From Actinomycetota bacterium (lineage in GTDB: Bacteria > Actinomycetota > Actinomycetes > Nanopelagicales > Nanopelagicaceae), in the NCBI GenBank assembly GCA_016870365.1, contig VGBW01000002.1, positions 62,001 to 126,000 on the forward strand: a DNA stretch of 64,000 bases, written 5' to 3'. Below are positions 9,061 through 26,133 of the stretch, piece after piece. The notes under the pieces are model-generated. The model worked only from the letters and a program-made list of their open reading frames with translations, made no database searches and was not told the origin of the DNA. Made by a program: the position numbers and the translations under genes. Each line of letters opens with the position of its first letter. The stretch's first letter is position 1.

Positions 9061-10359
9061 ATGTTGCTATCAGTATTTGCTAAGGCTTTTAGAACCCCTG
9101 ATCTGCGTCGCAAAATCTTCTTCACCCTTTCTATAATGGCCCTCTTTCGCTTTGGCTCTGTTATTCCAACACCAGGTGTCTCCTATGGAGCAGTTCAGCG
9201 CTGCCTAGCAAATGTTGATACTGGCGGGCTATTTGGGCTAATTAACCTATTTAGCGGTGGAGCGTTATTGCAGCTCTCAGTATTTGCCCTCGGCATCATG
9301 CCTTACATCACTGCTTCGATTATCGTGCAGCTATTAACGGTGGTAATTCCCCGATTTGAGACTTTGAAGAAGGAGGGCCAGTCAGGAACGGCCAAGCTAA
9401 CGCAATACACTCGTTATCTAACGATTGGCCTTGCACTTCTGCAGACCACAGGTTTGATCGCAGTTGCTAGAACTCCAGGTCGTCTAATTAGTGGCTGTAC
9501 CGAAGCGATCATCCCTGACACCTCCTGGCAGCGTATTGTCACCATGATCTTTGTTATGACCGCAGGGACTTCAGTGATCATGTGGCTTGGCGAGCTAATT
9601 ACCGATCGCGGCGTTGGTAATGGAATGTCCATCTTGATCTTCACCTCAATTGCTGCCACTTTCCCAGGTCAGCTCTGGTCAATCAAGCTCTCACGCGGTT
9701 GGGCCACATTCCTATTTATTATGGTCGTTGGAATCTTGATTGTGGCTGCGGTGGTATTTGTGGAGCAATCCCAGAGACGTATCCCAGTTCAATATGCCAA
9801 GAAGCAGGTGGGAAGACGCCAATATGGTGGAACCACTACCTATATTCCCATAAAGGTCAATCAATCAGGGGTCATCCCAGTTATCTTTGCCTCGTCACTT
9901 CTCTATGTCCCATCTTTAGTTGCCAACTTCACCAACTCCCAAGCACCTTGGGCGGTATGGATCTTAACCAACTTTGTCCAAGGCGATCACCCGATTTACG
10001 TAACGCTCTATGCTTTAATGCTCATTTTCTTTGCCTATTTCTATGTATCAATCACTTTCAACCCAGAAGAGACTGCTGAGAACATGCGCAAGTATGGTGG
10101 CTTTATTCCAGGTATCAGAGCAGGAAAGCCAACTAGTGATTACTTGGCTTATGTATTGAACCGCATCACAGCGCCTGGCTCGCTCTATCTTGCGGTGGTA
10201 GCGATCATTCCGATCATTGCCCTCGTGCTCTTTGGCGCATCTCAGAACTTCCCATTTGGTGGGACTGCTATCTTGATCGTGGTTGGAGTTGGCCTTGATA
10301 CTGCAAAGCAGATCGAGAGCCAGTTGCAGCAACGCTCTTATGAGGGGTTCTTGCGCTAA
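9061..10359 (+). CDS. secY: Preprotein translocase subunit SecY
   Basis: SecY is the pore of the Sec translocon, exporting unfolded proteins and inserting membrane proteins. The 432-residue protein has about ten hydrophobic segments. It shows the family motifs LFSGGALLQLSVFALGIMPY (plug and TM2 region), RRIPVQYAKKQVGRRQYGG (cytosolic loop) and GRPTSDYL-like GKPTSDYLAYVLNRIT. It overlaps adk by one base. It is the expected partner for the many Sec-type signal peptides in this window. Confidence 0.98.
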   Translation: MLLSVFAKAFRTPDLRRKIFFTLSIMALFRFGSVIPTPGVSYGAVQRCLANVDTGGLFGLINLFSGGALLQLSVFALGIMPYITASIIVQLLTVVIPRFETLKKEGQSGTAKLTQYTRYLTIGLALLQTTGLIAVARTPGRLISGCTEAIIPDTSWQRIVTMIFVMTAGTSVIMWLGELITDRGVGNGMSILIFTSIAATFPGQLWSIKLSRGWATFLFIMVVGILIVAAVVFVEQSQRRIPVQYAKKQVGRRQYGGTTTYIPIKVNQSGVIPVIFASSLLYVPSLVANFTNSQAPWAVWILTNFVQGDHPIYVTLYALMLIFFAYFYVSITFNPEETAENMRKYGGFIPGIRAGKPTSDYLAYVLNRITAPGSLYLAVVAIIPIIALVLFGASQNFPFGGTAILIVVGVGLDTAKQIESQLQQRSYEGFLR

Positions 10360-10919
10360 TGCGCTTGATCCTGGTTGGACCACCAGGTGCCGGTAAAGGA
10401 ACTCAGGCAGTTCATCTCGCCGAGCATTACCGAATCCCACATATCTCAACTGGAGATATCTTTCGCACCAATTTACAAGATGGCACACCTTTAGGGCTCA
10501 AGGCTAGGTCCTATATGGATAGAGGTGAGCTAGTTCCTGACTCCCTCACCAATGAGATGGTCAAAGATCGCTTATCCCGAGGTGATGCTAGAGGTGGCTT
10601 CTTGCTTGATGGATTCCCCAGAAACGTTACCCAAGCTCAAGTTCTAGATGCGATGCTAGCTGAGCAAGGTGTTGCACTTGATGCTGTTCTTGAGCTCTCG
10701 CTTGATAACGAGGAGATCATAAAGCGCCTATCTATTAGAGGTCGCGATGACGATAGGGACGAGATCATCAGAAAGCGCCTTGAGGTCTATAGCCAGCAAA
10801 CCGCGCCAATTATTAGCTTTTATCGCGAATCCGGTCTATTAGAAACCATTGCGGCAACTGGTGAGATTTCTGATATTACTGCCAGCGCCATTGCTGCTTT
10901 AAGCAGGAAACGGAGTTAG
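10359..10919 (+). CDS. adk: Adenylate kinase (short-LID type)
   Basis: Adk converts ATP plus AMP to two ADP. The P-loop GPPGAGKGTQ is at residues 7-16, the AMP-binding STGDIFR near residue 31 and the DGFPRN motif near residue 82. The LID is short (RGRDDDRDE) with no zinc-finger cysteines, giving 186 residues, as in other actinobacteria. It sits in the usual secY-adk-map order, three bases before map. Confidence 0.97.
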   Translation: MRLILVGPPGAGKGTQAVHLAEHYRIPHISTGDIFRTNLQDGTPLGLKARSYMDRGELVPDSLTNEMVKDRLSRGDARGGFLLDGFPRNVTQAQVLDAMLAEQGVALDAVLELSLDNEEIIKRLSIRGRDDDRDEIIRKRLEVYSQQTAPIISFYRESGLLETIAATGEISDITASAIAALSRKRS

Positions 10920-10922
10920 ACC

Positions 10923-11735
10923 ATGGCGATCCAGATAAAAACCTTGGATCAACTAAAGATCATGCGTAGGGCAAATCTCTTAGTGCGAAGCACCTTAGAG
11001 TTAGTAAGGGCTAACATGAAAGCCGGAGTCACCACTAGCGCTCTTGATGCAATTGCTGAGGCAAATATCAAACGCGGTGGTGGAACCTCAAACTTCAAGG
11101 GCTATCACGGATTTCCCGCAGTTATCTGTGTTTCAGTCAATGATGAAATAGTTCATGGAATCCCTGGAGATCGGATGTTGACGCCGGGTGATGTGGTCTC
11201 AGTTGATTGCGGAGCAATAATTGATGGCTGGCATGGTGATGCTGCATTCACCAAGGTTGTTGATCCGATTGATAGCGCACATCCCAAGATGCTAGAAGTT
11301 TGTGAAGAATCGCTATGGCATGGAATCGCTGCAGGAGTAATGGGAGCAAAGATCTCTGATATTGGACATGCAATTGAAAAATATGTTAACTCTCAAGGCA
11401 AGTATGGAATCTTGAGAGAGTATGGCGGGCATGGAATCGGCAATTCCATGCATATGGAGCCACACATTCTTAACTTTGGTAAAGCAGGGCATGGCCCAAC
11501 AATTGAGGCTGGAATGGTCTTTGCCATTGAGCCGATGATCACTATGGGATCTGAGAAGACCAGAGTGCTTGATGATAATTGGACTGTGGTCACCATTGAT
11601 AAGTCATTTGGAGCTCACTTTGAAAACTCTTACTGCATCGCACCGGATGGCAAACCCTTTGTGCTCTCAGTCGAAGATGGTGGAGCATCAGAGCTGGCCA
11701 GATTCGGCATAGAAGTCTCGCCACTTCTTTCATAA
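10923..11735 (+). CDS. map: Methionine aminopeptidase, type I
   Basis: Map removes the initiator methionine from nascent proteins. The M24A fold is complete. Metal-ligand aspartates are in VDCGAIIDGWHGDAAFT, the catalytic-site histidine in GGHGIGNSMH, and the two glutamates in AIEPM and FENSYCI. The 270-residue length is normal. In most bacteria infA follows directly; here the next gene is an M24-like paralogue and infA lies 13 kb downstream. Confidence 0.97.
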   Translation: MAIQIKTLDQLKIMRRANLLVRSTLELVRANMKAGVTTSALDAIAEANIKRGGGTSNFKGYHGFPAVICVSVNDEIVHGIPGDRMLTPGDVVSVDCGAIIDGWHGDAAFTKVVDPIDSAHPKMLEVCEESLWHGIAAGVMGAKISDIGHAIEKYVNSQGKYGILREYGGHGIGNSMHMEPHILNFGKAGHGPTIEAGMVFAIEPMITMGSEKTRVLDDNWTVVTIDKSFGAHFENSYCIAPDGKPFVLSVEDGGASELARFGIEVSPLLS

Positions 11736-11743
11736 GTTATCCG

Positions 11744-12817
11744 ATGAATAGAGCCTTGGAGCAGCGCGAAAAGCGCGCCAGAATCAAGGCTCTACTAGAA
11801 GCCAAGGGCCTTGATGCTGTGGTCTTAAGAAAGGGCGCAAATGTGGCCTGGATTATTGGCGGCAGGGCTCACATCCCAACGACTCTAGAGCTATCTTGCC
11901 TTGACGTGATCGTTTATCGAGATCGAATTGTCGCTGTCACTAACAAGATAGAGGCTCCTAGATTGGAGGCAGAAGAACTATCAGGCGATGAAGAGTTAAT
12001 TGTAATAGATTGGTTTGAAGGCAGAGATGGACAACTACCATCTGGTCAGAAGATTGGTATTGATAGTCCTGATAGTAATCGAGTTAATCTATCAGCTGAG
12101 ATTGATGAGCTAAGAAGAGCTTTAAATTCCTTTGAAGTAGATCGCTTGGAGCAGATTGGCTCTGATGCTGCTAAGTCTTTAGGTGAATCGATGCTAAAGA
12201 TTTCGTCAAAGATGAGCGAAGTTGAGGCGGCAGGTCTGATTGCAAATAGCTTATGGTCTCGCAATCTTGAACCTGTAGTTCTGTTAGTTGCCGGCAGTGA
12301 GCGCATTGAAAGCTTCAGGCATCCCCTGCCGACAACGAGTCTGATTGGCACAATCTTTATGGGAGTGATTTGCGCTAGAAGAAAAGGCTTGATCGCCAGC
12401 GTTACTAGAATTCGCTCACTCGGTTCTATTCCGCCAGAGATGGAAAGCAACTATCAAGCTTTGCTAAATGTGGAAGCAGCTTTTCTTGATGGCACAAAGG
12501 CCGGATCTACTTTTGGCCAAGCGTTCAAATCTGGTGAGCTTGAGTATCTAAAACAAGGTTTTGCGCGGGATGAATTCAGTAAGCATCATCAAGGCGGTCC
12601 TACTGGATATCTCCCGCGAGACTTTCCCGCGCATGAAAAAAGTGCCCAAGTAATTGGCATTAATAATGCAATTGCCTGGAACCCAAGTGCCCAGGGGATA
12701 AAGGTGGAGGACACCCTGATCACCAGAGCCTCTGGTTTTGAGATCATCACTGCGGATAAGAGCTGGCCCAGTCTTGAAATCAGGGGAAGAGCGCGCCCGG
12801 ATATCGCCCGCTCTTGA
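11744..12817 (+). CDS. M24-family creatinase/prolidase-like protein lacking most metal ligands
   Basis: The N-terminal half resembles the creatinase/prolidase N-domain (RIKALLEAKGLDAVVLRKGAN) and the C-terminal half the pita-bread M24 fold. Only the histidine pair at residues 281-282 (HHQGGPTG) and the final glutamate (KVEDTLIT) of the five usual ligands remain. The aspartate motif is replaced by CARRKGLIASVTRIRSLG, and the EPG motif by WNPS. This suggests a non-peptidase or a non-metal enzyme. Similar M24 proteins occur near sugar-catabolism genes, as I recall, but their reaction is unknown to me. It begins eight bases after map and precedes the operator at 12890, so it may belong to either transcript. 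Confidence 0.7.
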   Translation: MNRALEQREKRARIKALLEAKGLDAVVLRKGANVAWIIGGRAHIPTTLELSCLDVIVYRDRIVAVTNKIEAPRLEAEELSGDEELIVIDWFEGRDGQLPSGQKIGIDSPDSNRVNLSAEIDELRRALNSFEVDRLEQIGSDAAKSLGESMLKISSKMSEVEAAGLIANSLWSRNLEPVVLLVAGSERIESFRHPLPTTSLIGTIFMGVICARRKGLIASVTRIRSLGSIPPEMESNYQALLNVEAAFLDGTKAGSTFGQAFKSGELEYLKQGFARDEFSKHHQGGPTGYLPRDFPAHEKSAQVIGINNAIAWNPSAQGIKVEDTLITRASGFEIITADKSWPSLEIRGRARPDIARS

Positions 12818-12889
12818 CCTAAACGTGATGAAAAAGAGGTGAAAGAGCGTTGACCAGGCCCCTTTTGGGGATAAGACTGAGGCGCTTGG

Positions 12890-12904
12890 AGTGGTCAGAC
12901 CACT
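12890..12904. promoter_or_regulatory. GntR/FadR-type operator palindrome
   Basis: The 15-base AGTGGTC-A-GACCACT is a perfect 7+1+7 palindrome whose core TGGTCAGACCA matches the TGGTnnnACCA pattern bound by FadR-subfamily GntR regulators such as PdhR and LldR. It lies about 30 bases upstream of the first operon gene, and a FadR-type regulator is encoded in the same operon at 18713. A TTGACC element at 12850-12855 could be the -35 box, though its -10 partner (around 12872) is weak. A small CCCC/GGGG hairpin lies between. Confidence 0.7.
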
Positions 12905-12934
12905 TGCCAAGGGCTGGAAGGGAGTCTGAATTAG

Positions 12935-14041
12935 ATGCTCCGCTACGGGATTATCGGCATGGGCGCGATGGGTCGCGAGCATGCCAAGAACTTATCTTTC
13001 ATCGAGGGCGCATCGGTTACGGCAATTAGTGATCCAGACTCCATTTCACGAGAGTTAGCGGTCAAGCAATTAGGAGATCAGGTGGAAGTATTTACTGACC
13101 ATAAGGAGCTTCTAGATTCTGGGCTAGTTGATGTCGTTATTATCGCCACCCCTAACTTCACTCACGTTGATATTTTGGAAGATGCGCTGAAGACCTCACT
13201 TCACCTCTTTATTGAAAAGCCGCTCTGCACAACCATTGCCGATTGTCTGAAAGTAATTCAATGGTCAAAGAACAGAAGTGGATTGGTCTGGATGGGCCTT
13301 GAATATCGTTATATGCCACCAGTTGCTGAGCTAATTTCTCTGGTGCATAGCGGGGCAGTAGGAGAAGTTCAACAAGTCTCCATTAGAGAGCACCGTGAGC
13401 CTTTCTATCCAAAGGTTGGAAATTGGAATCGTTTCACTTCCAAGACCGGTGGAACGCTAGTTGAGAAATGCTGCCACTACTTCGATCTTATGGATCACAT
13501 CGCTAAAGAGCGTCCAAATCGAGTCTTTGCCTCTGGGGGGCAGAGAGTTAATTTCCTTGATGAAAGTCATGATGGAGCAAAGGCGGATATGCTCGATAGC
13601 GCTTATGTCATTTTGGAATATCCCAGTGGCAAAAGAGCGATGTTGGATCTCTGTATGTTTGCTGAAAATACTGTTGATAGAGAACACATTTCGGTTACAG
13701 GAAGTGAGGGAAAGGCAGAATCATTCTTGCCATCACTAGAGCTGCGCTATGGAAAGAGAAGTGCGGTTGGAAACTTTAGGCAGTGGAGCCATGATGCTTC
13801 AAAGCCAATGGTTGAATCAAGGAAAGTCTGGGACGAGAGCATCAAATACATCGGATTTCACTATGGGGCCTCGTATCTTGAGCACCTGAAGTTCTTTGAT
13901 TCCATAAAGAGTGAGAGAGCCCCAGATGTGAGCCTAGAGGATGGCCTTAGAAGCGTTGCTTCAGGCCTTGCGGCTCAAATGAGTATCGCTCAGGCTCGCC
14001 CTGTTCTAATGAGTGAAGTACTGCCTGCGGGGTGGAATTAA
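12935..14041 (+). CDS. Gfo/Idh/MocA-family NAD(P)-dependent protein
   Basis: This is a Rossmann-fold sugar oxidoreductase of 368 residues. The dinucleotide-binding GIIGMGAMG is at residues 5-13, the EKPLCT motif near residue 95, and a substrate-site CCHYFDLMDH near residue 182. Members act on inositols and sugars. Some members of this fold (GH188) are described as NAD-dependent sulfoquinovosidases, which would fit the downstream sulfolactate genes, but I cannot show that from sequence alone. It is the first gene of the operon and ends in a TAATG overlap with the isomerase-like gene. Confidence 0.8.
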   Translation: MLRYGIIGMGAMGREHAKNLSFIEGASVTAISDPDSISRELAVKQLGDQVEVFTDHKELLDSGLVDVVIIATPNFTHVDILEDALKTSLHLFIEKPLCTTIADCLKVIQWSKNRSGLVWMGLEYRYMPPVAELISLVHSGAVGEVQQVSIREHREPFYPKVGNWNRFTSKTGGTLVEKCCHYFDLMDHIAKERPNRVFASGGQRVNFLDESHDGAKADMLDSAYVILEYPSGKRAMLDLCMFAENTVDREHISVTGSEGKAESFLPSLELRYGKRSAVGNFRQWSHDASKPMVESRKVWDESIKYIGFHYGASYLEHLKFFDSIKSERAPDVSLEDGLRSVASGLAAQMSIAQARPVLMSEVLPAGWN

Positions 14042-15450
14042 TGAGTAGCTGCACTCTAATTCCTCTGGCACGTCCAACATTTGATGTAGCGGCTGCTCAA
14101 GAATTCTTTGACTCTGCTCGTGATCTTTTAGGTGATATTGGAGCTACTGTAAATGGACCAACATCACTTGTGATGACACCAGAGGATACCGCTAGCGCTG
14201 AGGCAAATCTCAAATCTGATGAGAAGCTATACATTCTCTTCAATGCATCATTCGCTGATGCCTCTGCGGCAGTTTCGCTTCTTTCCAAAGTTTCAGGCGA
14301 AGTGCTTCTATGGTCGGTGAGGGAATTTGGTGAGGTAGGAGATCGCCTGCTTCTTAATTCCATGTGTGGATCAAATCTCGCAGCTCATGCGCTTCGAGTA
14401 AATGGAAAGAGGATTACTCATCTTCATGGAAATCCTGATGAAGCGCATGTTCGACATTCTCTCTCATCTGCCCTATCTGGAAAGATGCCAAGTGTTGGAC
14501 AACCTGAAACAGTCAAGGGCCAATTAGCAGATCTAGATAAGGTTGAGAGCGCACTTGCTAAATTAAATGGTTTGACTATTGGAGCAATTGGTGATGCTCC
14601 AGCAGGCTTTACTCCCTGCAACTATGATGCACAGGTATTAAAGAAATCATTTGGGCTAAATGTTATCAATAAATCCATTCCTGAAATCTTTGCCGATATT
14701 GCAGCGGTACCACTTGATGAGGAGAGCGCAGAATATAGAGATGCCTGTGATGCTCAACCCTCTCTTAGAAAGGTTCCTGAGAGAGAGGCGCGTATAAATG
14801 CCAGCACTAGAGTGGCACTTGGTAACTGGATTAGGGCCAATGACTTATCAGCCATTGCCATGCGCTGCTGGCCTGATTTCGCAGTTGATCTAGGAGCTTG
14901 TCCTTGCGGAGCTATGGGGAGAACTGCCACCAGTGGGACTCCAGCAGCCTGCGAGCGAGATGTTTATGGCGCAGTAACTATGCTGCTTTTGGAGGCACTG
15001 GGCTCTGGAACAAATTACTTGGTAGATACCGTGGATTTAGAAGAAGACAAGAACATTATTCGAATCTGGCATTGTGGCTCTGCTGCAACCACTTTGGCTG
15101 TTGATCCCGATAATGCAACGCAGTTCATACACTGCAATAGAAAGCTAGGTGTGGCCGGTAACTTCCCTCTTAAAACCGGTCCGGTCGTTCTGGTAAGGCT
15201 GGATACCGATATCGATCCAGCGAATCAGAGCAAACTCCGATTAGTAATGACTAGTGGTGAATCACTATCTGCTCCTAATCGGTTCCAAGGTAATACCGCT
15301 ACGGTTCGGACAAACGCACCAGCACGACAATTAGTGAATGGGTTGATCCAAAACGGATTTCCTCATCACACCGTTGTCTCTTGGCGCGACATCCGTCCCG
15401 AAGTACGAAGGATGGCGGAACGGCTCGCCATTCCGCTAACCGAGTGGTAA
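14041..15450 (+). CDS. L-fucose/L-arabinose isomerase-like protein
   Basis: The 469-residue protein resembles the fucose-isomerase superfamily, which interconverts aldoses and ketoses with a divalent metal. Family-like features are the N-terminal Rossmann-like half ending near IGAIGDAPAGFTPCNYD, the central CWPDFAVDLGACPCGAMGR, and the C-terminal HCNRKLGVAGNFPLKTGPV region. ATG 14041 shares a base with the previous stop; a GTG at 14032 is possible. In this operon it could convert a sulfo-aldose (sulfoquinovose) to the ketose used by the PfkB kinase, but that substrate is inferred. Confidence 0.72.
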   Translation: MSSCTLIPLARPTFDVAAAQEFFDSARDLLGDIGATVNGPTSLVMTPEDTASAEANLKSDEKLYILFNASFADASAAVSLLSKVSGEVLLWSVREFGEVGDRLLLNSMCGSNLAAHALRVNGKRITHLHGNPDEAHVRHSLSSALSGKMPSVGQPETVKGQLADLDKVESALAKLNGLTIGAIGDAPAGFTPCNYDAQVLKKSFGLNVINKSIPEIFADIAAVPLDEESAEYRDACDAQPSLRKVPEREARINASTRVALGNWIRANDLSAIAMRCWPDFAVDLGACPCGAMGRTATSGTPAACERDVYGAVTMLLLEALGSGTNYLVDTVDLEEDKNIIRIWHCGSAATTLAVDPDNATQFIHCNRKLGVAGNFPLKTGPVVLVRLDTDIDPANQSKLRLVMTSGESLSAPNRFQGNTATVRTNAPARQLVNGLIQNGFPHHTVVSWRDIRPEVRRMAERLAIPLTEW

Positions 15451-15486
15451 TCGAATGATTCACCACCCCTCGAATAAGGAGAAAGA

Positions 15487-16929
15487 ATGAAAGTAAGTAA
15501 GAGCGCGAAGGCGTTCAAGTTACTGGTTGCAGGTGCATTCGCACTTTCAGCCACAATCGTTCCAATCTCGGGAGCAATTGCTAACACCCCGAACCTTGGA
15601 GCGAAATGTACAGATGAAGGTATGAACACTGGCACCACATCCCGTTCGCTAATTTGCGTAAAGAATGACAGAGGCGAACTCCGCTGGGCTCGCGTTAAGT
15701 TGAGCTCGAGCGGTAAAAGTCCAGTTTCAGCGTCACGTTCGCCAGCTGGATCAATCGAGTTCCATCACTGGCGCGGTGAAGACAAGACAGTATTTGACGC
15801 CATCATCGCAAAGTTTGAGGCAGCAAATCCTGGCGTCAAAGTCACCCAGGTAATCAAGGACTCAACCTCATACCAGGCGACTGCGCTAACAACTATCCGT
15901 AGCAATCCGAAGGCAGCTGTTTTCACTACCTTCCGCGGCGGTCAGTTCAATGACTTCTTCAAGGCGAACATGGTTACTGACATCACCAACCAACGCTTTG
16001 TAACGAACAACGTCATCCAGAGCGCACTTGCTCCTGCGACAGTTGCAGGTAAGGTCTACGGAATCCCTTACCATTCACTCTTCAACAACCCGCTATATAA
16101 CGCGGATATGTTCGCGAAGAAGGGTTGGAAGGTTCCAAAGAACTGGACCCAGCTACTTGCATTCTGCAAGACTGCAAAAGCTGATGGGATCATCCCGTTT
16201 GCTTGGCCAGCTGCTACCCGTGGTAACGCAGGTCAGATCCTTAACTCGTTCTTGATGAACTCAGCTCCTGATCTAGCAACAATAGAGCAGAGAGTTATCG
16301 ATATCGAGTCGGGCAAGGCAGATCTCAACTCTGCCTGGTTTAAGGACATGGCAAACAAGTACAAGCAGATGAACGATGCTGGTTGCTTCCCAAATAACGT
16401 AACCGGCTATAACGATTCTGTAGCACCAGTTGACTTTGCAACTGGCAAGGCAGCGATCTACCCAACAGGTTCATTTGGAATCAGCTCAGTAACAAAAGCT
16501 AATCCAGATATGAAGGGCAAGATCAAGATGTTCGGCATGATCACAACCGACGATAAGCCTCTCTATGAAGGAATTACCAACAACACCTTCATTTTGAGCG
16601 TTAATCCGAAGTCAACATCGCGCGATCAACAGATTGCACGTGCCTTTATCTCCTACCTCGCTCAGGCGAGCGTTGCCCGGGAGTACGCAGTCGGAACCTC
16701 GCAGCATACTTCGATCGTCAACGTTGATTACTCGGCTAACGTCGATCTACTCAATGTCTCTGACATCATGGGTAAGAAGCTTCTTCTTGCTCCTCGCTTC
16801 TTGTTCCTCAATGTCGCCCAGGTTCGCGATCCGATGGAAGACGCATTGATCGCAATCGGCGGCGGCGCTGATGTTAATAAGACGCTTACGGATACCTCTG
16901 CCAAGATCAAACAGAATCTAGGTAAGTAA
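15487..16929 (+). CDS. Sugar ABC transporter substrate-binding protein (family 1) with N-terminal Cys-pair module
   Basis: This is an extracellular solute-binding protein of 480 residues. Residues 1-32 form a Sec signal peptide with probable cleavage after AIA. Residues about 33-70 form a small module with C41 and C57 (GAKC...LICVKN...W67), also found in the secreted protein at 62308-63006. The binding domain follows from about residue 80 (IEFHHWRGEDKTVFDAI), typical of MalE/UgpB-like proteins. No lipobox is seen. A ribosome-binding site (AAGGAGAAAGA) precedes the ATG. The gene uses more C-ending codons than its neighbours, which suggests high expression. A strong hairpin follows it. Confidence 0.9.
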   Translation: MKVSKSAKAFKLLVAGAFALSATIVPISGAIANTPNLGAKCTDEGMNTGTTSRSLICVKNDRGELRWARVKLSSSGKSPVSASRSPAGSIEFHHWRGEDKTVFDAIIAKFEAANPGVKVTQVIKDSTSYQATALTTIRSNPKAAVFTTFRGGQFNDFFKANMVTDITNQRFVTNNVIQSALAPATVAGKVYGIPYHSLFNNPLYNADMFAKKGWKVPKNWTQLLAFCKTAKADGIIPFAWPAATRGNAGQILNSFLMNSAPDLATIEQRVIDIESGKADLNSAWFKDMANKYKQMNDAGCFPNNVTGYNDSVAPVDFATGKAAIYPTGSFGISSVTKANPDMKGKIKMFGMITTDDKPLYEGITNNTFILSVNPKSTSRDQQIARAFISYLAQASVAREYAVGTSQHTSIVNVDYSANVDLLNVSDIMGKKLLLAPRFLFLNVAQVRDPMEDALIAIGGGADVNKTLTDTSAKIKQNLGK

Positions 16930-16954
16930 GCCATTAGCAGTAACACTAACCAGA

Positions 16955-16985
16955 GCGTTCTTGCCGCCGAAAGCGGCGAGAACGC
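16955..16985 (+). terminator. Strong intercistronic hairpin after binding-protein gene
   Basis: Two 13-base arms (16955-16967 and 16973-16985) pair fully, with one G-T wobble, around a five-base CGAAA loop. No T-run follows, so this is more likely an mRNA-stabilising or partial-attenuation hairpin than a full terminator. It would keep binding-protein mRNA above permease mRNA. Confidence 0.65.
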
Positions 16986-16992
16986 CACTGGC

Positions 16993-17898
16993 GTGCGCAA
17001 GTCTAAGAATATGATCCGAAGGGGAGAGTCGAAAGTTCTCCTCTTGATGGCACTTCCAGCATTTTCAATCTATGCCGTCCTCTATCTTTATCCAGCGCTC
17101 TCAAACCTTCTCTGGGCGACTCGCCGATGGGATGGTAACCCTGAGTCCGAACCAGAAACGGTTGGATTCCGTAATTTCACTTATATGTTTTCCAATGATG
17201 ATGTATTTATCCAATCGCTTGGTAACAATTTCCGATTCATGTTGCTCGTGGTCATATTCCAGACCGGCTTCTCTCTTCTTTTCGCAACCTATTTGACTAA
17301 GAACACGCGCACTACAATCTTTTTGCGAACACTTTATTTCTTTCCAACTATCCTCTCTTCGGTATCAGTTGGACTTATCTGGCTCGCACTTTACGATCCG
17401 AACTACGGATTCATCAACGCGTCATTTAAAGCGCTAGGCTTTGAATCACTTGCACTCAATTGGTTGGGCGATTCGCGCTACGCCCTTTACGCCTTAGCCG
17501 TAACGCAAGTTTGGTTCCACACCGGCCAGATGATGGTCATCTATGTTGCGGGGCTGCAGCAGATCCCACAAGAACTTTACGAAGCCGCACAAGTCGATGG
17601 CGCAAGTAGGTGGCAACAGTTCAAGCATGTTACTTGGCCAATGGTGCTACCCACCACAGCCGTAGTTGTCGCCTATACAACTATCCAAACATTCCGCGCC
17701 TTTGATCTTGTCTATACGATGACAAATGGCGGCCCGCTGAATTCAACGGAGATTATCGTAACTCTCATTTACCGGAATGCTTTCTTTGGCTATCAATATG
17801 GATATGCCGCTGCCCAAACGGTTGTTCTTGTAGTCGTCGTTCTCTCAATTACCTGGTTGCAGCGTCGCACGCTCCGCCTTGATTACGGGGTGAAGTGA
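16993..17898 (+). CDS. Sugar ABC transporter permease (MalF/UgpA-like)
   Basis: This is an inner-membrane permease of a CUT1-type importer. The 301-residue protein has about six membrane helices and the EAA loop (ELYEAAQVDGASRWQQFKHV near residue 195) that contacts the ATPase. The GTG at 16993 is the longest start; ATG 17011 (MIRRGESKVLLLM) is an alternative. No ATP-binding gene is in the operon, so a shared MsmK-type ATPase must be supplied from elsewhere. Confidence 0.9.
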   Translation: MRKSKNMIRRGESKVLLLMALPAFSIYAVLYLYPALSNLLWATRRWDGNPESEPETVGFRNFTYMFSNDDVFIQSLGNNFRFMLLVVIFQTGFSLLFATYLTKNTRTTIFLRTLYFFPTILSSVSVGLIWLALYDPNYGFINASFKALGFESLALNWLGDSRYALYALAVTQVWFHTGQMMVIYVAGLQQIPQELYEAAQVDGASRWQQFKHVTWPMVLPTTAVVVAYTTIQTFRAFDLVYTMTNGGPLNSTEIIVTLIYRNAFFGYQYGYAAAQTVVLVVVVLSITWLQRRTLRLDYGVK

Positions 17899-18713
17899 TG
17901 ATTTATAGGACGATCAAAGGCTCTTTGCTAACTGTTTTCGCTCTAGCAATCATCATCCCTTGCTCAATTGTGATCATGGGAGCATTCAAAACAGATCTCA
18001 AGATTATCTCTGAGCCGCTAGCTCTTCCCGAGAGTTGGAATGTTGATAACTTCAAGCGGTTGATCGATTCTGGTTCGGTCTATACCCCAGCGAAGAACAG
18101 CTTAATTGTTGCCTTCTTCTCAGTCTTCATCACGCTCTCCTTAGCAAGTTTGGCTGCATTTGCGATTTCACGTCTCATCACGGTGACTGGGAAAGTTCTC
18201 TTCGTCCTCTTCTCTGTGGGTCTTGCAATCCCGGGTCAGGTCAACATCATTCCTATCTATTTGCTCTTTGTTGATTTAGGACTAACAAATTCACTTACTG
18301 GACTTGTGCTTGTGAATATCGCTCTCACATTGCCGATATCTATCTTTATCATAACCGCCTTCTTTAGGGATTTGCCGAAGGAAATGTTTGAAGTTGCTGG
18401 GATAGATGGAGCAGGGCCATGGCGTATCTATCGCTCAATTGCACTTCCCCTATCTCGCCCTGCTATTGGCGCTACGGGAATCTTTCTATTTGTGATTTGT
18501 TGGAATGATCTTCTCTATCCATTAATGCTCATTACACGGGAGGATAAGAAAACTCTTCCACTTACTCTGATTGATTTCCGCGGCGAATATTTGACCGAAT
18601 ACAGCATGATCTACACCGCGATCTTGGTTGCATCTCTACCAATGGTCATTATGTATATCGCCTTCCAGCGTTCGTTTATCGCTGGACTAACCCAGGGAGC
18701 AGTAAAAGGCTGA
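17898..18713 (+). CDS. Sugar ABC transporter permease (MalG/UgpE-like)
   Basis: This is the second permease of the importer, 271 residues, with about six helices and an EAA loop (EMFEVAGIDGAGPWRIYRSI). The ATG shares a base with the stop of the first permease (TGATG); a GTG three bases upstream is also possible. Its stop shares a base with the start of the GntR-type regulator, so importer and regulator are translationally linked. Confidence 0.9.
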   Translation: MIYRTIKGSLLTVFALAIIIPCSIVIMGAFKTDLKIISEPLALPESWNVDNFKRLIDSGSVYTPAKNSLIVAFFSVFITLSLASLAAFAISRLITVTGKVLFVLFSVGLAIPGQVNIIPIYLLFVDLGLTNSLTGLVLVNIALTLPISIFIITAFFRDLPKEMFEVAGIDGAGPWRIYRSIALPLSRPAIGATGIFLFVICWNDLLYPLMLITREDKKTLPLTLIDFRGEYLTEYSMIYTAILVASLPMVIMYIAFQRSFIAGLTQGAVKG

Positions 18714-19426
18714 TGAATCCGCAGATACTCAAGGCAGCTCCGCGTTCTGCAAATCAGGCGCGGTTACTCCTTGATTACATAGAGCGGGAGAATCTAGTTC
18801 CTGGCGATCGTCTTGCCCCAGAGCGAGAACTCGCGAAAAAGCTAGGAATAAGCCGGCCATCCCTCCGTGAGGCGATTCAAGTACTTCAAACGCAGGGCCG
18901 ACTCTTGGTGCGACATGGAATCGGCGTCTTTCTCTTGGAGGATCAAGAGGGGGAACAACTGCGCAACTCGCTCATAAGTGCGCATCATTCAATCGAAGAA
19001 CTATTTGAGATGCGCGAGATCTTAGAAGCTCCCGCAGTTGAGTGGGCAGCAGATCGATGCAGCGGAGAACAACTAGTAGCAATCGAGCGTGCAGCAGAGT
19101 CTCTTCGGGCCGCAATAGCCGAGACACCAATCAACTTCGAAAAGGTGCGCTTACTTGATATGGACTTCCACCTAACTATTGTTAAGAGCGCTGAGAATCG
19201 ATTCTTGAATCAGACTCTAGGAACTTTGCAAGAGATCATGTTCCAGTCGATGGACAATACATTGAAGTTGCCAGGCCGTATTGATAGCTCAGAAGATGAA
19301 CATGGAATGATATTAGAGGCTATTGAAAAGCGAGATCCAATTACTGCTCGGCTAATGATTATTCAACACATTCATAATGCCCGTGATGCTTGGAAGAAGT
19401 ATTTGAAGAAACAAAGTGACTTATGA
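18713..19426 (+). CDS. FadR-subfamily GntR transcriptional regulator
   Basis: The winged helix-turn-helix is at residues about 12-75 (GDRLAPERELAKKLGISRPS), followed by an FCD ligand-binding domain. Likely metal or ligand residues are visible in DMDFHLTIV, DEHGMILEAI and IIQHIHNA. FCD regulators usually bind small organic acids, often intermediates of the pathway they control. The gene sits inside the operon whose leader carries a TGGTnnnACCA palindrome (12890-12904), so autoregulation and induction by a pathway acid such as sulfolactate are plausible. It overlaps the kinase gene by ATGA. Confidence 0.92.
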   Translation: MNPQILKAAPRSANQARLLLDYIERENLVPGDRLAPERELAKKLGISRPSLREAIQVLQTQGRLLVRHGIGVFLLEDQEGEQLRNSLISAHHSIEELFEMREILEAPAVEWAADRCSGEQLVAIERAAESLRAAIAETPINFEKVRLLDMDFHLTIVKSAENRFLNQTLGTLQEIMFQSMDNTLKLPGRIDSSEDEHGMILEAIEKRDPITARLMIIQHIHNARDAWKKYLKKQSDL

Positions 19427-20268
19427 GCCAAGTCCTCTGTGTTGGTGTGGCCACTGTTGATAACATCGTGTTAGTTGATAAATATCCAAGTGCTAATCAA
19501 AGAGTTGTGGCTCTTGATTCAACGCGCGCAGTTGGTGGACCGGCAACAACAGCTGCTGTGACTTTAGCACGCCTCGGCGTAGAAGTATCGCTATCTTGTG
19601 TTATCGGAGATGATGAAGAGGGAAAATTCATCCTTGATACCTTGAAGAAAGAAGGCGTTGATACCAGAAATATAGAAGTGGATGGTGATGTAAAAACTGC
19701 TCGGGGAACGATAGTCGTTTCAAAGAGCGAGCAGAGCCGGGCGATAATGGTTATGCCTCATGATCAAATTTCGAAAAAACCTCTTGATATCTCCAAATAT
19801 CAATGGATTCACGTTGATCAAGCAGGAATGAGAGCATTAAAGAATTGGGGGATTAGTAGAGATGGATCTGCCAAACTCTCGATTGATATTGGTTATGAAA
19901 CCCCTGGGCTAAATCCTGCAGATTATGATCTCTATGCGCCATCTGAAAACATAACAACTGATACCTCAACTGCAGCAAGAGATAGAAATATTGTGGTTAT
20001 CTCACAGGGAGAGAGGGGCAGCCTCTACTGCGATGGCGTTAGTTCAGGCAGCGTTCCGGCAATTAACGCGCAAATCTTAAGCACACTTGGCGCTGGCGAT
20101 GTCTTTCATGGCGCACTTGTTGCAGCGCAAGTTTGGAATAAGGAAATAACTGAGGCGGTATTGATAGCAAATACCGTGGCTGGCCTTTCATGCAGGGGCC
20201 TTGATGGACAGAGCAGAATTCCTAGAAAGAATGAGCTGGAAGCCTATTTGGCAAAGGCGAAGATCTGA
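19423..20268 (+). CDS. PfkB-family sugar kinase, sulfofructose-kinase-like
   Basis: This is a ribokinase-fold kinase of 281 residues. The N-terminal VGGPATTAAVTLARLG and the C-terminal STLGAGDVFHGALVAA (catalytic Asp in GAGD) define the PfkB family. GAGDVFHGAL and the following cysteine-containing VAGLSCRGLDGQSRIP resemble E. coli YihV, 6-deoxy-6-sulfofructose kinase, more than ribokinase (GAGDAF). From memory of YihV the resemblance also covers the GGPA-TAAV block. If so it makes sulfofructose 1-phosphate, but no aldolase gene is nearby. The gene is coupled to the regulator and shares its last base with an upstream ATG of the next frame. Confidence 0.82.
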   Translation: MSQVLCVGVATVDNIVLVDKYPSANQRVVALDSTRAVGGPATTAAVTLARLGVEVSLSCVIGDDEEGKFILDTLKKEGVDTRNIEVDGDVKTARGTIVVSKSEQSRAIMVMPHDQISKKPLDISKYQWIHVDQAGMRALKNWGISRDGSAKLSIDIGYETPGLNPADYDLYAPSENITTDTSTAARDRNIVVISQGERGSLYCDGVSSGSVPAINAQILSTLGAGDVFHGALVAAQVWNKEITEAVLIANTVAGLSCRGLDGQSRIPRKNELEAYLAKAKI

Positions 20269-20309
20269 TGGGGATAACGGGTAATCAGAGATATGGAAAG
20301 GAAGTAATG

Positions 20310-20609
20310 ATGGCCAAAGTGCCTGACTTTCTCCTCCACCATGATGGCGATTCAGTTGCTGTTGCAAATGATGATTTGCAACCTGGCACACTGCAAGGGC
20401 TATCAGTGAAGGAGCAGACTGCACATACTGCAGTATTAAATGAGCCAATTCCCTTAGGGCATAAGTTCGCGCTTCGCGATCATGCAGAGGGTGAGGCGAT
20501 AGTTAAGTATGGAATTAAGGTAGGAATCGCTTCAAAGGTGATCAAAAGAGGCGATTACGTTCACACACACAACATGAGGAGTTATCGATGGGAAGCAAGC
20601 CGCGCTTAA
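20310..20609 (+). CDS. suyA: SuyA-like small subunit (SAF domain) of sulfolactate sulfo-lyase
   Basis: The small SAF-domain subunit of the UxaA/SuyAB lyase family has 99 residues when started at ATG 20310, five bases after a GGAAAGGAAG ribosome-binding site. The longer frame from 20268 is less likely. Family features are IPLGHKFALRD, VKYGIKVG and the terminal YVHTHNMRSYRW. SuyA and SuyB together cleave (R)-3-sulfolactate to pyruvate and sulfite. Altronate or galactarate dehydratase small subunits share this domain, so the assignment rests on the split form and the neighbours. Confidence 0.75.
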   Translation: MAKVPDFLLHHDGDSVAVANDDLQPGTLQGLSVKEQTAHTAVLNEPIPLGHKFALRDHAEGEAIVKYGIKVGIASKVIKRGDYVHTHNMRSYRWEASRA

Positions 20610-21754
20610 GCGGATACCGTCGCCCTGATGGGACGATGGGTATCCGTAACCATGTCATCATCTTGCCAGTTGATGACTTATCAAATGCTGCAGCAGAGGC
20701 GGTGGCAAAAGTAGTGCCTGGCACTTTGGCACTGCCTCATAGCTATGGGCGTCTGCAATTTGGTGAAGATCTCGAGTTAACTTTTCGCACTCTTATCGGC
20801 ATAGGCCTCAATGGCAATGTGGCAGCGGTCATAGTCATTGGAATTGAACCAAATTGGACTCAGAGAGTCGCCAATGGCATCGCAAAATCAGGAAAGCCCG
20901 TAGCTCCATTTTCTATTGAAGGCAAAGGCGATTTACAAACAATTGCCGATGCAGCAAGGGTTGCTCAAGTTTTCTTGCAAGATGCATCAGAGATTGTTCG
21001 TGAGAGCGCAAGTGAAGGCGATTTGATTCTCTCAATTAAATGCGGAGAATCTGACACCACCTCAGGCCTTGGATCATGTCCGACAACTTCTGAGGCGGTA
21101 GATCGCTGGGTGGCAGCTGGAGGAACGGTTTTCTTTGGAGAAACCTCAGAACTAACTGGAGGTGAGCATCTGATTGCAGATCGCTGCATCGATGATGCTT
21201 GTCGCAATCTCTTCCAAGCTACCTATGACAATTACATGAAGGTAATTGAATCAACTGGTGCAAACCTGCTTGGATCACAACCAACCCAAGGAAATATTGC
21301 AGGTGGTCTAACTACCATTGAAGAAAAGGCTCTAGGAAACATTGCTAAGACCGGATCTGTCCCAGTAGTCGGTGTTTTGGCACCAGCGCAGGCCCCACCA
21401 AGAAACAAGCCAGGTCTTTATTTCATGGACACTTCATCAGCTGCTGCCGAATGCGTCACCCTTATGGCTGCGGCCGGCGCCGTTATTCACCTCTTCCCGA
21501 CTGGTCAGGGAAATGTCATTGGCAATCCAATTGAGCCAGTCCTTAAGTTGACTGCCAATAGGAAAACAGCAGCATCAATGCCAGAGCATATTGATCTTGA
21601 TGTCTCTGGCTTGTTGCGACAGGAATATAACTTGACTAAAGCCGGCGACATGATGATGGAGGTAATTGAGCGAACTGTTAATGGAAGGCTCTGCGCGGCA
21701 GAGGCTCTAGGACACCGCGAATTCACCTTCACCAAGCTCTTTATCAGCGCCTAG
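20588..21754 (+). CDS. suyB: SuyB-like large subunit of sulfolactate sulfo-lyase
   Basis: This 388-residue catalytic subunit belongs to the UxaA/GarD superfamily. The N-terminus (SGYRRPDGTMGIRNHVIILPV) is shared by all members. LPHSYGRLQFGEDLELTFRT replaces the Cys-containing segment of altronate dehydratase and, as I recall, is the pattern seen in SuyB. KCGESDTTSGLGSCPTTSEA and FGETSELTGGEHL follow. The length matches the known SuyB, while altronate dehydratase is a longer single chain. A GAGGAG site at 20576-20581 serves ATG 20588, which lies inside suyA (22-base overlap). Confidence 0.78.
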   Translation: MGSKPRLSGYRRPDGTMGIRNHVIILPVDDLSNAAAEAVAKVVPGTLALPHSYGRLQFGEDLELTFRTLIGIGLNGNVAAVIVIGIEPNWTQRVANGIAKSGKPVAPFSIEGKGDLQTIADAARVAQVFLQDASEIVRESASEGDLILSIKCGESDTTSGLGSCPTTSEAVDRWVAAGGTVFFGETSELTGGEHLIADRCIDDACRNLFQATYDNYMKVIESTGANLLGSQPTQGNIAGGLTTIEEKALGNIAKTGSVPVVGVLAPAQAPPRNKPGLYFMDTSSAAAECVTLMAAAGAVIHLFPTGQGNVIGNPIEPVLKLTANRKTAASMPEHIDLDVSGLLRQEYNLTKAGDMMMEVIERTVNGRLCAAEALGHREFTFTKLFISA

Positions 21755-21794
21755 AAGGAACCCTCGATTACCCAAAACGACAAAGGACTGGTTC

Positions 21795-22748
21795 GTGATT
21801 CTAATAAGTGAAGATGTTTGGAGCGCAGATTTTGAGGCGCTTGCTAAGTCCTTTCCTATAATTCGCGAACCAGAACTTTGGAGAAATCAGGATGCGCTAA
21901 GGGGAAAGCTTTCGACTGCAACAGCGCTGGTAGTTAGAAATCGCACGCAAGTCACTAGAGATTTAATTGCATCTGCAAAGAATTTGAAGATTATTGCAAG
22001 AGCTGGAGCAGGTCTAGACAACATCGATTTGAAGGCGGCAGATGATCATGGAGTGGTAGTAAGTGCCGCCCTTGGCATCAATGCCACTGCTGTTGCTGAG
22101 CAGACTCTGGCTTTGGCACTTGCCTTGAGTAGAAAGATAATTGAGCTTGATTCAAGCACGAGAGAAGGTCAATGGAATCGAAAGGCTGGAGTGGAGATCT
22201 CTGGCAAGACTTGGGGACTTCTAGGATTTGGAGCAACAGCCCGGGCAACCGCTGAGTTACTTAAGGGATTTAATGTAAGAATTCTGGCCTATGACCCCTT
22301 CGCAAAACCTGAAAAGAGTTATCTAGACTCTTTAAATTGCCAGATGAGTTCACTTGATGAGGTCATTTCTAACTCTGATTATCTCTCAGTGCATTTACCG
22401 GCAACTACTGAAACTAGGGAGATTATTGATAGCAAGAAGCTATCTACAATGCAGAAAAGTGCGATACTAATTAGCGTTGGACGCGGGGAAGTCATTAATG
22501 AGGCAGATTTAGAGCAGGCCTTAAGAGATGGAGTAATTGCAGGTGCTGGCCTTGACGTGAGAGCACAGGAGCCGCCAACAGATAAGCGCTTCACCGATCT
22601 TGGTAATGTCATTTTAGCTCCCCATATCGCAGGAATCACTCATGAGAGCCAGGCAGCTATTGATAGGGTATTAGTAAGTGAGATCAGAGCAGCGCTTAGC
22701 GGTGGTCAGCAAAGTCATGCTGTCGGCGCCATAAAGCAGGCTAAGTGA
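21795..22748 (+). CDS. slcC: D-2-hydroxyacid dehydrogenase, SlcC-like ((S)-sulfolactate dehydrogenase candidate)
   Basis: This is an NAD-dependent 2-hydroxyacid dehydrogenase of the phosphoglycerate-dehydrogenase type, 317 residues. The Rossmann GLLGFGATARATAELL starts near residue 139. The catalytic Arg is in SVGRGEVI, Glu in RAQEPP and His in APHIAG. The N-terminal VVRNRTQV and the LKIIARAGAGLDNID substrate loop are normal. GTG 21795 has an AAAGGA site seven bases upstream. Beside SuyAB and a ComC-like enzyme, the likely substrate is (S)-3-sulfolactate, oxidised to sulfopyruvate. Confidence 0.75.
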   Translation: MILISEDVWSADFEALAKSFPIIREPELWRNQDALRGKLSTATALVVRNRTQVTRDLIASAKNLKIIARAGAGLDNIDLKAADDHGVVVSAALGINATAVAEQTLALALALSRKIIELDSSTREGQWNRKAGVEISGKTWGLLGFGATARATAELLKGFNVRILAYDPFAKPEKSYLDSLNCQMSSLDEVISNSDYLSVHLPATTETREIIDSKKLSTMQKSAILISVGRGEVINEADLEQALRDGVIAGAGLDVRAQEPPTDKRFTDLGNVILAPHIAGITHESQAAIDRVLVSEIRAALSGGQQSHAVGAIKQAK

Positions 22749-23758
22749 TGGCAATTTCAATTCAGAGAGCCCTGACTCATGCCACATCATTACTAATCAA
22801 AGCTGGAGTGAATGAAGGTAATTCGGCAAAAACTGCTCGCGCCATCGTTACTTCAGACGTCTGGGGCAATCCCAGCCATGGCCTCATGCGCCTTCCCTTC
22901 TATCTGCAGAGATTGACATCTGGCGGGGTTAATCCAAAAGCTGAACTCAAAGTTATTTCAGAATATGGCGCAACGATTTCACTTGATGGCCAAGATGGCC
23001 TAGGGCATTGGCAATTGCTAGATGGCGCAGGAATTGGAGTAAGAAAGGCAAGGCAATCTGGCATCTCTTTAGTTTCGATTGCGAACTCAAGTCACTGCGG
23101 AGCGCTTGGGGTTTATCTCTATGCCGCACTTGATGCCAAGATGATCTCAATGATTTTCACTAATGGCCCTGCTGTAATGCCTGCAATTGGAGGAAGTTCT
23201 CCAATTCTTTCTACCAGCCCTATCGCCTCAGGAATTCCGTCAAATCCTCCAATGATTATCGATCTTTCAACATCTGCTGTCGCTAGAGGGAAAATTGCGA
23301 GCGCTGCGAAAGCTGGAGGATTAATTCCTGAAGGCTGGGCAGTTAATGAAAGAGGCGAATCAATTACCGATGCCAAGCAAGCTCTCTTAGGGATGCTTGC
23401 CCCACTAGGAGGAGCTAAAGGATTTGCACTGGGCTTGATGGTGGAGTCCCTCTCTGCAGGCCTCAGCGGAGGATCGTTATCAAGGGTTGTTCCAGACATG
23501 TTCAATCAAGACGATGATAAAAAGCCACAATCGATCTCTCATACCGTGATTACTATTGATCCAGAAAGTATTGGCCAGGAGTCAAAAGATGGATTTAACG
23601 AGCTGGCCAAAAGTATTGTCGATAGCGGCGGAAGAATTCCAGGAAGCAGGCGAGTAAGTCCCGATGATTTAGGCAGTGGTGAAATAACGCTAACTGATGC
23701 GGTAGTTAGCGATCTTAATTCTTGGAGCCAAAGGCTGGGCTTGGAAAATATTTCATGA
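22748..23758 (+). CDS. comC: Malate/L-lactate dehydrogenase family, ComC-like ((R)-sulfolactate dehydrogenase candidate)
   Basis: This 336-residue member of the Ldh2/MDH2 family uses NAD(P)H on 2-oxoacids. Family blocks include SDVWGNPSHGLMRLP (with the His near residue 45), NSSHCGALGVY and APLGGAKGFALGLMVE. Its best-known sulfonate relative, ComC, reduces sulfopyruvate to (R)-sulfolactate. Together with the preceding SlcC-like enzyme it would convert (S)- to (R)-sulfolactate for SuyAB, as described in Chromohalobacter. ATG 22748 shares a base with the slcC stop, and the 3' end overlaps the exporter by ATGA. Confidence 0.75.
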   Translation: MAISIQRALTHATSLLIKAGVNEGNSAKTARAIVTSDVWGNPSHGLMRLPFYLQRLTSGGVNPKAELKVISEYGATISLDGQDGLGHWQLLDGAGIGVRKARQSGISLVSIANSSHCGALGVYLYAALDAKMISMIFTNGPAVMPAIGGSSPILSTSPIASGIPSNPPMIIDLSTSAVARGKIASAAKAGGLIPEGWAVNERGESITDAKQALLGMLAPLGGAKGFALGLMVESLSAGLSGGSLSRVVPDMFNQDDDKKPQSISHTVITIDPESIGQESKDGFNELAKSIVDSGGRIPGSRRVSPDDLGSGEITLTDAVVSDLNSWSQRLGLENIS

Positions 23759-24723
23759 AATTAACTACCAATAACCTAAAATACTTCTCGGCTATTTCAA
23801 TTCTTGTCGCCTTGGCATATGGGTTCAGTAAATTACAGGGCGCGATCTCGCCTCTTTTCATCTCTATGCTCTTTGGTTTAGCTCTGGTCAATACTGGGCT
23901 CTGGGGCGCTGATGGCGAGGAGGCGGCAAACTTTGCAGCAAAGCGGTGCCTGCGCCTCGGGGTGGTGCTTCTTGGCTTTCAGATCTCAATTGATAAGTTT
24001 ATTGAAGTCGGCCCAAGAGGATTGTTAGCAGTAGTAACAATAGTTACTGGGGTTTTTCTAGGCCTTAGGTTTGCATCCATTAGGAGTGGCTCTAGTGAAT
24101 CCTTTTCAACGCTTCTTGCTGGTGGTTTTGCGATTTGTGGAGCGACTGCAATTGCTGCAATTAGCTCTACTAGAAAGAGCCAAGAACGCGATGTTTCGTA
24201 TGCAGTTGCACTTGTTGCTCTCTGTGGCACTCTCTCAGTTTTTGTAATTCCACCTCTTGCAAACCTATTTTCATTAAGTGATACCAGAGCAGGGGCTTGG
24301 ATTGGAGGTGCAGTTCATGATGTTGGCCAGGTAATAGCTACCGCATCCCTGATGGGACCTGAGGCACTTGATAGCGCAGTGATCGTGAAGCTAACCAGAG
24401 TAGTTTTGCTTATTCCGCTAATTCTTTTGCTTACTTTGAAAAGTGGTGAGAAGAAATCACCTAAAAGCGCTATTCCAGTATTTGTTATCGGTTTTGTGGC
24501 CTGCGCGCTGATTGTTAATGCCCTCTCACTTCCTGAAAGTGCTGTTGGCGCTGGAAGAGAGCTATCAAAGATCTTCTTATCTCTTGGTTTGTTGGGCATG
24601 GGCCTTGGGGTGAAGTGGGCTTCGATTAAGGCACTTGGGGCAAAACCTCTTGTTTTCGGCCTTACCGCCTGGGTGGCCTGCGGGGGATTTGCCCTTGCGG
24701 TGATCACCTGGGTTGGGCTCTAG
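23755..24723 (+). CDS. YeiH/UPF0324-family putative sulfite/sulfate exporter (SuyZ/CuyZ-like)
   Basis: This 322-residue membrane protein has about ten hydrophobic helices and the family blocks RLGVVLLGFQIS, CGATAIAAIS and GAWIGGAVHDVGQV. Relatives named SuyZ or CuyZ accompany sulfolactate and cysteate sulfo-lyases and are thought to export sulfite or sulfate. The start overlaps the ComC-like stop by ATGA. It is the last gene of the operon. A weak stem (GGGA/TCCC, 24724-24735) followed by TTTTCT may end transcription. Confidence 0.85.
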   Translation: MKLTTNNLKYFSAISILVALAYGFSKLQGAISPLFISMLFGLALVNTGLWGADGEEAANFAAKRCLRLGVVLLGFQISIDKFIEVGPRGLLAVVTIVTGVFLGLRFASIRSGSSESFSTLLAGGFAICGATAIAAISSTRKSQERDVSYAVALVALCGTLSVFVIPPLANLFSLSDTRAGAWIGGAVHDVGQVIATASLMGPEALDSAVIVKLTRVVLLIPLILLLTLKSGEKKSPKSAIPVFVIGFVACALIVNALSLPESAVGAGRELSKIFLSLGLLGMGLGVKWASIKALGAKPLVFGLTAWVACGGFALAVITWVGL

Positions 24724-24809
24724 GGGAGAATTTCCCTTTTCTAACCTCCTCTCATAAACTCCCCCTCTGCCCAAATGAGGGCTCGAGGCAAACAAAACGA
24801 GGTTAACGC

Positions 24810-25031
24810 TTGGCTAAAAAAGACGGTGCGATCGAAATCGAAGGCACTGTAGCTGAAGCGCTACCTAATGCGATGTTTCGCGTGGAGCTCACCAATGGAC
24901 ACAAAGTGCTGGCACATATCAGCGGGAAGATGCGACAGAACTACATCCGTATCTTGCCTGAGGATCGTGTGATCGTAGAACTTAGTCCATATGACCTCAC
25001 CAGAGGTCGCATCATTTATCGGTATAAGTAA
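24810..25031 (+). CDS. infA: Translation initiation factor IF-1
   Basis: IF-1 blocks the A site during initiation. The 73-residue OB-fold protein ([29 protein letters not shown]) is canonical. The start is TTG at 24810, set by the invariant MAKKDG and a GAGG site seven bases upstream. A TAAACT box at 24755-24760 could be its own -10, needed because the usual map-infA linkage is broken by the 13-kb catabolic block. Confidence 0.97.
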
Positions 25032-25056
25032 TTTAAGTAATAAGAGGAGTCTGATC

Positions 25057-26116: not shown

Positions 26117-26133
26117 GGAAGGGAGAAGAAAAG

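Follow-up and report, generated by a model that had tools for sequence, protein, structure and literature searches.

Which protein acts on the perfect palindrome that precedes a 12-gene operon in this actinobacterial genome, and which metabolite controls that protein? In the window (the whole stretch of 64,000 nucleotides that was analyzed), the palindrome, AGTGGTCAGACCACT, occupies exactly positions 12890 to 12904 (no strand assigned) and consists of one central base flanked by two perfect 7-bp arms. It lies inside the 117-bp gap between the pepP stop codon at 12817 and the ATG at 12935, 30 bp upstream of the first gene of the operon. A sequence-only reading of this DNA had noted a perfect palindrome upstream of an operon that encodes a FadR-type regulator, with the cognate-type gene at 18713; both are found as described, and the gene that starts at 18713 in the same plus-strand run codes for a GntR protein with an FCD domain. 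Judging from the sequence, the palindrome is very likely the operator of a repressor encoded in the operon itself.

The same reading had assigned the site to the TGGTnnnACCA operators of PdhR/LldR-type regulators. Operators of the GntR/FadR subfamily are palindromes with GT/AC boxes, such as NyGTM-N0-1-KACNy and TKGT/ACMA (PMC4494728), and the arms AGTGGTC and GACCACT around a central A fit the GTC-N-GAC pattern. The FadR-subfamily part of the assignment is supported, but the FadR-type core GGTC-N-GACC matches better than the generic PdhR/LldR pattern. The genome-wide count of the TGGTnnnACCA core was discarded as a diagnostic, as it is found in 31 places versus 22 for the reversed control pattern.

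Gene content of the operon

The twelve genes between 12935 and 24723 are all transcribed in the same direction (plus strand), with short gaps or overlaps, and their predicted products read as a system for sulfosugar catabolism that would convert sulfoquinovose through sulfolactate to pyruvate and sulfite. The first gene (12935 to 14041) encodes an SqgA-like, NAD-dependent sulfoquinovosidase of the GH188 family (E values of 1e-100 and 8e-98 with the SqgA structures 8QC3 and 8QC2, respectively, in PDB). Its product matches all seven checked residues of ArSqgA (Lys107, Tyr136, Arg166, Lys172, Glu189, His193, and His321), which are catalytic and sulfonate-binding side chains of SqgA named in PMC10755693. 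The second gene (14041 to 15450) codes for a sulfoquinovose isomerase-like protein of the SftI/L-fucose isomerase superfamily, a distant relative that matches NF048012 with an E value of 9e-82 and 275 bits, under the 700-bit cut-off of that model. It is followed by genes for the substrate-binding protein (15487 to 16929; PF13416) and the two permeases (16993 to 17898 and 17895 to 18713; both PF00528) of an ABC transporter, by the sixth gene (18713 to 19426; PF00392 and PF07729), which encodes the FadR-subfamily GntR/FCD regulator proposed to bind the operator, and by a gene for a sulfofructose-kinase-like PfkB kinase (19423 to 20268), whose best PDB match is the sulfofructose kinase 7AG6 (E value of 1e-26).

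The remaining genes are tentatively assigned to sulfolactate metabolism and the export of sulfite or sulfate. The suyA-like gene for the small subunit of sulfolactate sulfo-lyase (20268 to 20609), which shows only galactarate-dehydratase N-terminal homology (TIGR03248), adjoins the suyB-like gene for the large subunit (20588 to 21754; PF20629 and PF04295), whose product is 68 to 97% identical across relatives. The domains and gene order of this pair, assigned from general domain models, fit a UxaA/GarD-like two-subunit lyase acting with SlcC and ComC. The next two genes encode an slcC-like 2-hydroxyacid dehydrogenase (21795 to 22748; PF02826, assigned by context) and a comC-like L-sulfolactate dehydrogenase (22745 to 23758; NF040650, E value of 1e-54, 186 bits, under the cut-off), and the last one (23722 to 24723; TIGR00698, E value of 5e-49) codes for a YeiH-family exporter, probably of sulfite or sulfate.

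The sulfosugar operon is inserted into a ribosomal-protein/secY neighborhood (9061 to 27882) between secY-adk-map-pepP and rpsM-rpsK-rpsD-rpoA, an arrangement conserved across the genus. The pepP-like gene for an M24 peptidase is located directly 5' of the sulfosugar operon both in the window (11744 to 12817) and in the sister-genus arrangement (L087:4147-5190). This gene, only about 46% identical between the genera, may be part of the sulfosugar module.

Of the sulfo-EMP enzymes, namely the isomerase, the SF kinase, and the sulfofructose-phosphate (SFP) aldolase, the last one was not found. A search for the YihT-type SFP aldolase, run with a positive control, detected none in five same-genus genomes, including this one; a YihT-like enzyme is present in all eight sister-genus genomes tested. 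In the sister genera, the aldolase gene (7AG1, E value of 1e-72) lies directly 3' of pfkB (L087:11574-12458), a place that corresponds to a gap at 20268 in the window. When the window's own genome was searched for the missing SFP aldolase among the DeoC-type and class II aldolase families, the yield was a DeoC and a single short piece of an FBA gene. This sole match to class II fructose-bisphosphate aldolase is a 90-codon fragment with an internal stop (G000:C3:41943-42209, L164) and represents either an assembly break or a decayed gene. With the rest of the pathway kept, the apparent lack of the aldolase in this genus means either that a step is missing or that another enzyme has replaced it.

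The GntR/FCD regulator

The product of the gene at 18713 combines a GntR winged helix (PF00392, E value of 2e-12) with an FCD domain (PF07729, E value of 2e-24), both above the respective cut-offs. The equivalents of the base-contacting residues of FadR, taken from Table 1 of PMC4494728, are R38, S47, R48, R52, H68, and G69, all of which are invariant in 27 homologues. In the FCD domain, D149, H153, and H197 are invariant in 27 sequences, and H219 is conserved at 90% or more. These four residues align with the Asp and His residues of 2DI3, the zinc-containing lactate regulator LldR of Corynebacterium glutamicum, the aligned residues presumably being its metal ligands. The best NCBIfam match of the regulator is also LldR, at 91 bits against an equivalog cut-off of 311, which places it outside that equivalog. 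Its co-occurrence with the site and the conservation of both lead to the prediction that this protein very likely binds AGTGGTCAGACCACT.

Conservation of the site in related genera

Lack of conservation in relatives was one of two outcomes that the sequence-only reading had named as refuting it, and the palindrome proved to be conserved. The genus consensus of the site, RGTGGTCWGACCWCT, is found once per genome in 17 of the 24 same-genus genomes, many of which are incomplete, and in all 17 it is located 16 to 34 bp upstream of the same first gene. In the sister genera, the cluster is split into one unit consisting of sqi, the transporter genes, gntR, pfkB, and the aldolase gene and another consisting of suyAB-slcC-comC-yeiH, with gfo divergent from suyA. 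The site tracks these operon boundaries: it is absent before the internal suyA in all 17 loci of the window's genus, and, where the cluster is split, it is found in its exact form between gfo and suyA and also before sqi (exact in one locus and one or two bases off in others).

Several sister-genus loci have a second, weaker site in the gfo/suyA gap, 65 to 73 bp away from the first (L169:4749 and 4822; L172:6319 and 6384). This spacing equals about six to seven helical turns, and the paired operators could serve for cooperative binding or provide one site per promoter.

Distribution in distant Actinobacteria

A scan with the regulator alignment identified 73 loci, and 28 more distant loci with suyA were scored for the site. 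In these loci, which come from taxa including Streptomyces, Prauserella, Mycolicibacterium, Nocardioides, and Gulosibacter, the regulator is about 40 to 49% identical. A score of 13 or more out of 15 is reached by a site near the suyA start in 25 of the 28, and the remaining three loci score 12 or less. In 50 rounds with null sets that were first-order random sequences rather than exact dinucleotide shuffles, the number of such loci averaged 0.06 and never exceeded 2. An unbiased count of 4-mer palindromes upstream of suyA, to which the motif was not supplied, ranks GGTC-N1-GACC at the top (9 loci versus 0.32 expected). First-order random sequences likewise served as the null for this count and for the scan of sites at operon boundaries described above. 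One Dormibacterota metagenome-assembled genome encodes the regulator and SuyAB without a good site.

The class was surveyed in 394 genomes: 24 contain suyB-type genes, 22 contain the regulator, and 21 contain both (Fisher P = 1e-30). Of the three genomes counted for suyB only, two have a regulator gene truncated by the end of a contig. The third genome, G138 (L175), belongs to another family and carries a cluster of suyAB, slcC, comC, pfkB, aldolase, and isomerase genes; neither such a GntR regulator nor, at its suyA, a good site was found, so this cluster is apparently under different control. It is a useful, though single, negative control.

In Saccharopolyspora, related regulators have similar sites about 75 bp upstream, and their neighbors code for an SDR, a lactonase, an IlvD/EDD protein, and a YicI-like GH31 enzyme, without suyAB. 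One such locus (L111:5250-12464), in which the regulator homologue has AGTGGTCATACCACT about 75 bp upstream and lies beside genes for an SDR, an SMP-30 lactonase, an IlvD/EDD dehydratase, a YicI-like GH31 enzyme, and a sugar transporter, is probably a different sugar-acid regulon. Assignment of the Saccharopolyspora loci to the sulfo-ED pathway was rejected, as their GH31 proteins are nearer to YicI and alpha-glucosidases than to YihQ. Because these regulators are found beside other sugar-acid genes, members of the wider family can have different ligands, and sulfolactate would not be sensed everywhere.

Promoter context, proposed mechanism, and alternatives

The site is preceded on the plus strand by a probable −35 element, TTGACC (12850 to 12855; complete in 10 of the 11 genomes aligned and truncated in the other by the end of the contig), and a probable −10 element, AAGACT (12873 to 12878; identical in all 11), separated by a spacer of 17 nt in all aligned genomes (TTGACC-N17-AAGACT). 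The latter is a weak sigma-70 match and was missed by a consensus scan. The distance from the −10 element to the operator is 11 nt, or 4 nt in a second sub-clade. In the 11 aligned upstream regions, mean column identity is 0.97 for the −35 element, 1.0 for the −10 element, and 0.93 for the operator, and the flanks drift (0.49 in the 11 bases between the −10 element and the operator and 0.57 in the leader).

We consider it quite probable that the palindrome is the operator of a repressor of its own sulfosugar operon that is released by a C3 sulfonate, most likely sulfolactate. A dimer would occupy the two GGTC half-sites just 3' of the −10 element, at a place that overlaps or immediately follows the expected transcription start, and would block transcription there of the whole operon, including the regulator's own gene. 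In the breakdown of sulfoquinovose, a C3 sulfonate, sulfolactate being the most likely, would arise as an intermediate and enter the FCD domain at the Asp/His metal site, and the ligand-loaded repressor would leave the operator. Both repression and the autoregulation proposed earlier appear likely; like the FadR-subfamily nature of the operator, autoregulation is supported by a site that is conserved, shifts as operon boundaries do, and co-occurs with the regulator, and by the kept DNA-contact residues.

The identity of the inducer, for which the sequence-only reading had offered sulfolactate or sulfopyruvate as possible small organic acids, is less certain, and for sulfolactate it ranges from an even choice to a likely one. 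With the same operator and regulator, the effector could instead be sulfoquinovose, sulfofructose or its phosphate, sulfolactaldehyde, or sulfopyruvate, a possibility that we view as real, if doubtful: the operon in Nanopelagicaceae also carries genes for sugar uptake and sulfosugar enzymes, and sulfopyruvate stands between the SlcC and ComC reactions (PMC12421959). In the distant Actinobacteria, however, the most constant neighbors of the regulator and its site are suyAB, usually with slcC and comC, and sqi, gfo, and pfkB are not nearby, so a sugar is not the shared signal unless the ligand has changed. Because these loci contain suyAB and mostly slcC/comC without the sugar genes, the shared ligand is more likely to be sulfolactate or sulfopyruvate than a sugar, and the constancy of suyAB, together with the LldR-type metal ligands in the FCD domain, makes a sulfolactate-type ligand the best guess.

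It is rather unlikely that the regulator is not a simple repressor but an activator, or a roadblock that stops read-through arriving from the ribosomal/secY operon upstream. The sulfosugar operon, flanked by pepP and rpsM among ribosomal-protein genes, may need read-through to be limited, and a site 3' of the −10 element would suit a roadblock; the same position fits repression better than activation, and a roadblock would still amount to repression of the operon. Much less probable is an RNA hairpin, i.e., a terminator or leader structure, in place of a DNA site. A stem can form in the window sequence (minimum free energy of −23 kcal/mol, z = −1.7), but relatives with AGTGGTCAGACCTCT break it, the L028 sequence folds no better than its shuffles, and the fold differs between species. 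No terminator was found at the site, where a T-run is absent, and the 15-mer stays while its flanks change. No compensatory changes that preserve pairing but lose GGTC/GACC were seen, which largely refutes the hairpin.

Chance alone would produce some four perfect 7+1+7 palindromes per 64 kb (64000 × 4^-7) and about 0.007 per 117-bp gap, so a bare palindrome of this kind in 64 kb is unremarkable; at up to three mismatches, the 15-mer is not enriched in the window (3 matches, equalled in 12 of 100 shuffles). The full 15-mer has one exact place in the genome, the next best having 2 mismatches, and this uniqueness, along with conservation at one position in relatives, exceeds chance; the palindrome is credible because it is conserved. 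A functionless chance palindrome, to which the expected number and the common core would lend themselves, is thus negligibly probable in view of the conservation, placement, and recurrence of the site by the same genes in distant taxa.

Significance and comparison with known systems

A limited search of the open literature found no description of sulfolactate or sulfoquinovose genes under the control of a GntR regulator. The regulon is apparently undescribed; the kind of system, a local GntR repressor, is ordinary. We give about even weight, for and against, to the broader view that these proteins form an undescribed regulator family, widespread in Actinobacteria, that would sense sulfolactate through a metal-centered FCD domain and control sulfonate mineralization via AGWGGTCNGACCWCT operators, and that has taken over the whole sulfoquinovose pathway in Nanopelagicaceae. 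If so, this would be an FCD regulator that senses a sulfonate. Both sulfoquinovose and sulfolactate rank among the major currencies of organosulfur, and the relatives of this genome, Nanopelagicaceae, are bacteria that are very abundant in freshwater. With an operator-regulator pair predicted and a candidate ligand named, the timing of the switch-on of sulfosugar breakdown becomes testable; the pair also offers a genome marker for actinobacterial sulfolactate regulons and could serve as a sulfolactate biosensor.

The E. coli FadR operator has the same GGTC-N-GACC center, and FadR shares with the 18713 regulator the GntR winged helix and equivalents of its Arg35, Arg45, Arg49, His65, and Gly66, with Thr44 replaced by Ser. 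Unlike FadR, which has an acyl-CoA domain, the 18713 regulator has an FCD domain with Asp/His metal ligands, and its predicted targets are sulfosugar/sulfolactate genes. LldR of C. glutamicum (2DI3) and LldR and PdhR of E. coli are likewise FCD regulators of small carboxylates, with the Asp/His pattern aligned in 2DI3, but the 18713 protein scores far under the equivalog cut-offs, has other target genes, and is paired with an operator that has 7-bp arms and AG..CT ends. In E. coli, the sulfoquinovose regulator CsqR (YihW) is of the DeoR rather than the GntR type, and the sulfoquinovose pathway ends without a sulfolactate lyase. CsqR is similar in being the local regulator of a sulfoquinovose cassette (PMC10991401). 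The SlcC/ComC-SuyAB system for sulfofucose in Paracoccus wurundjeri follows the same sulfosugar-to-sulfite logic with an ABC transporter, but it belongs to Proteobacteria and has a sulfo-ED-type upper pathway, and GntR is mentioned 0 times in its description (PMC12421959). The sulfo-EMP cluster of Arthrobacter sp. AK01 also has a GH188 sulfoquinovosidase, SqgA, encoded beside the sulfo-EMP genes (PMC10755693); the operon in the window differs from it in having no SFP aldolase gene and in adding sulfolactate desulfonation (suyAB, slcC, comC, and yeiH).
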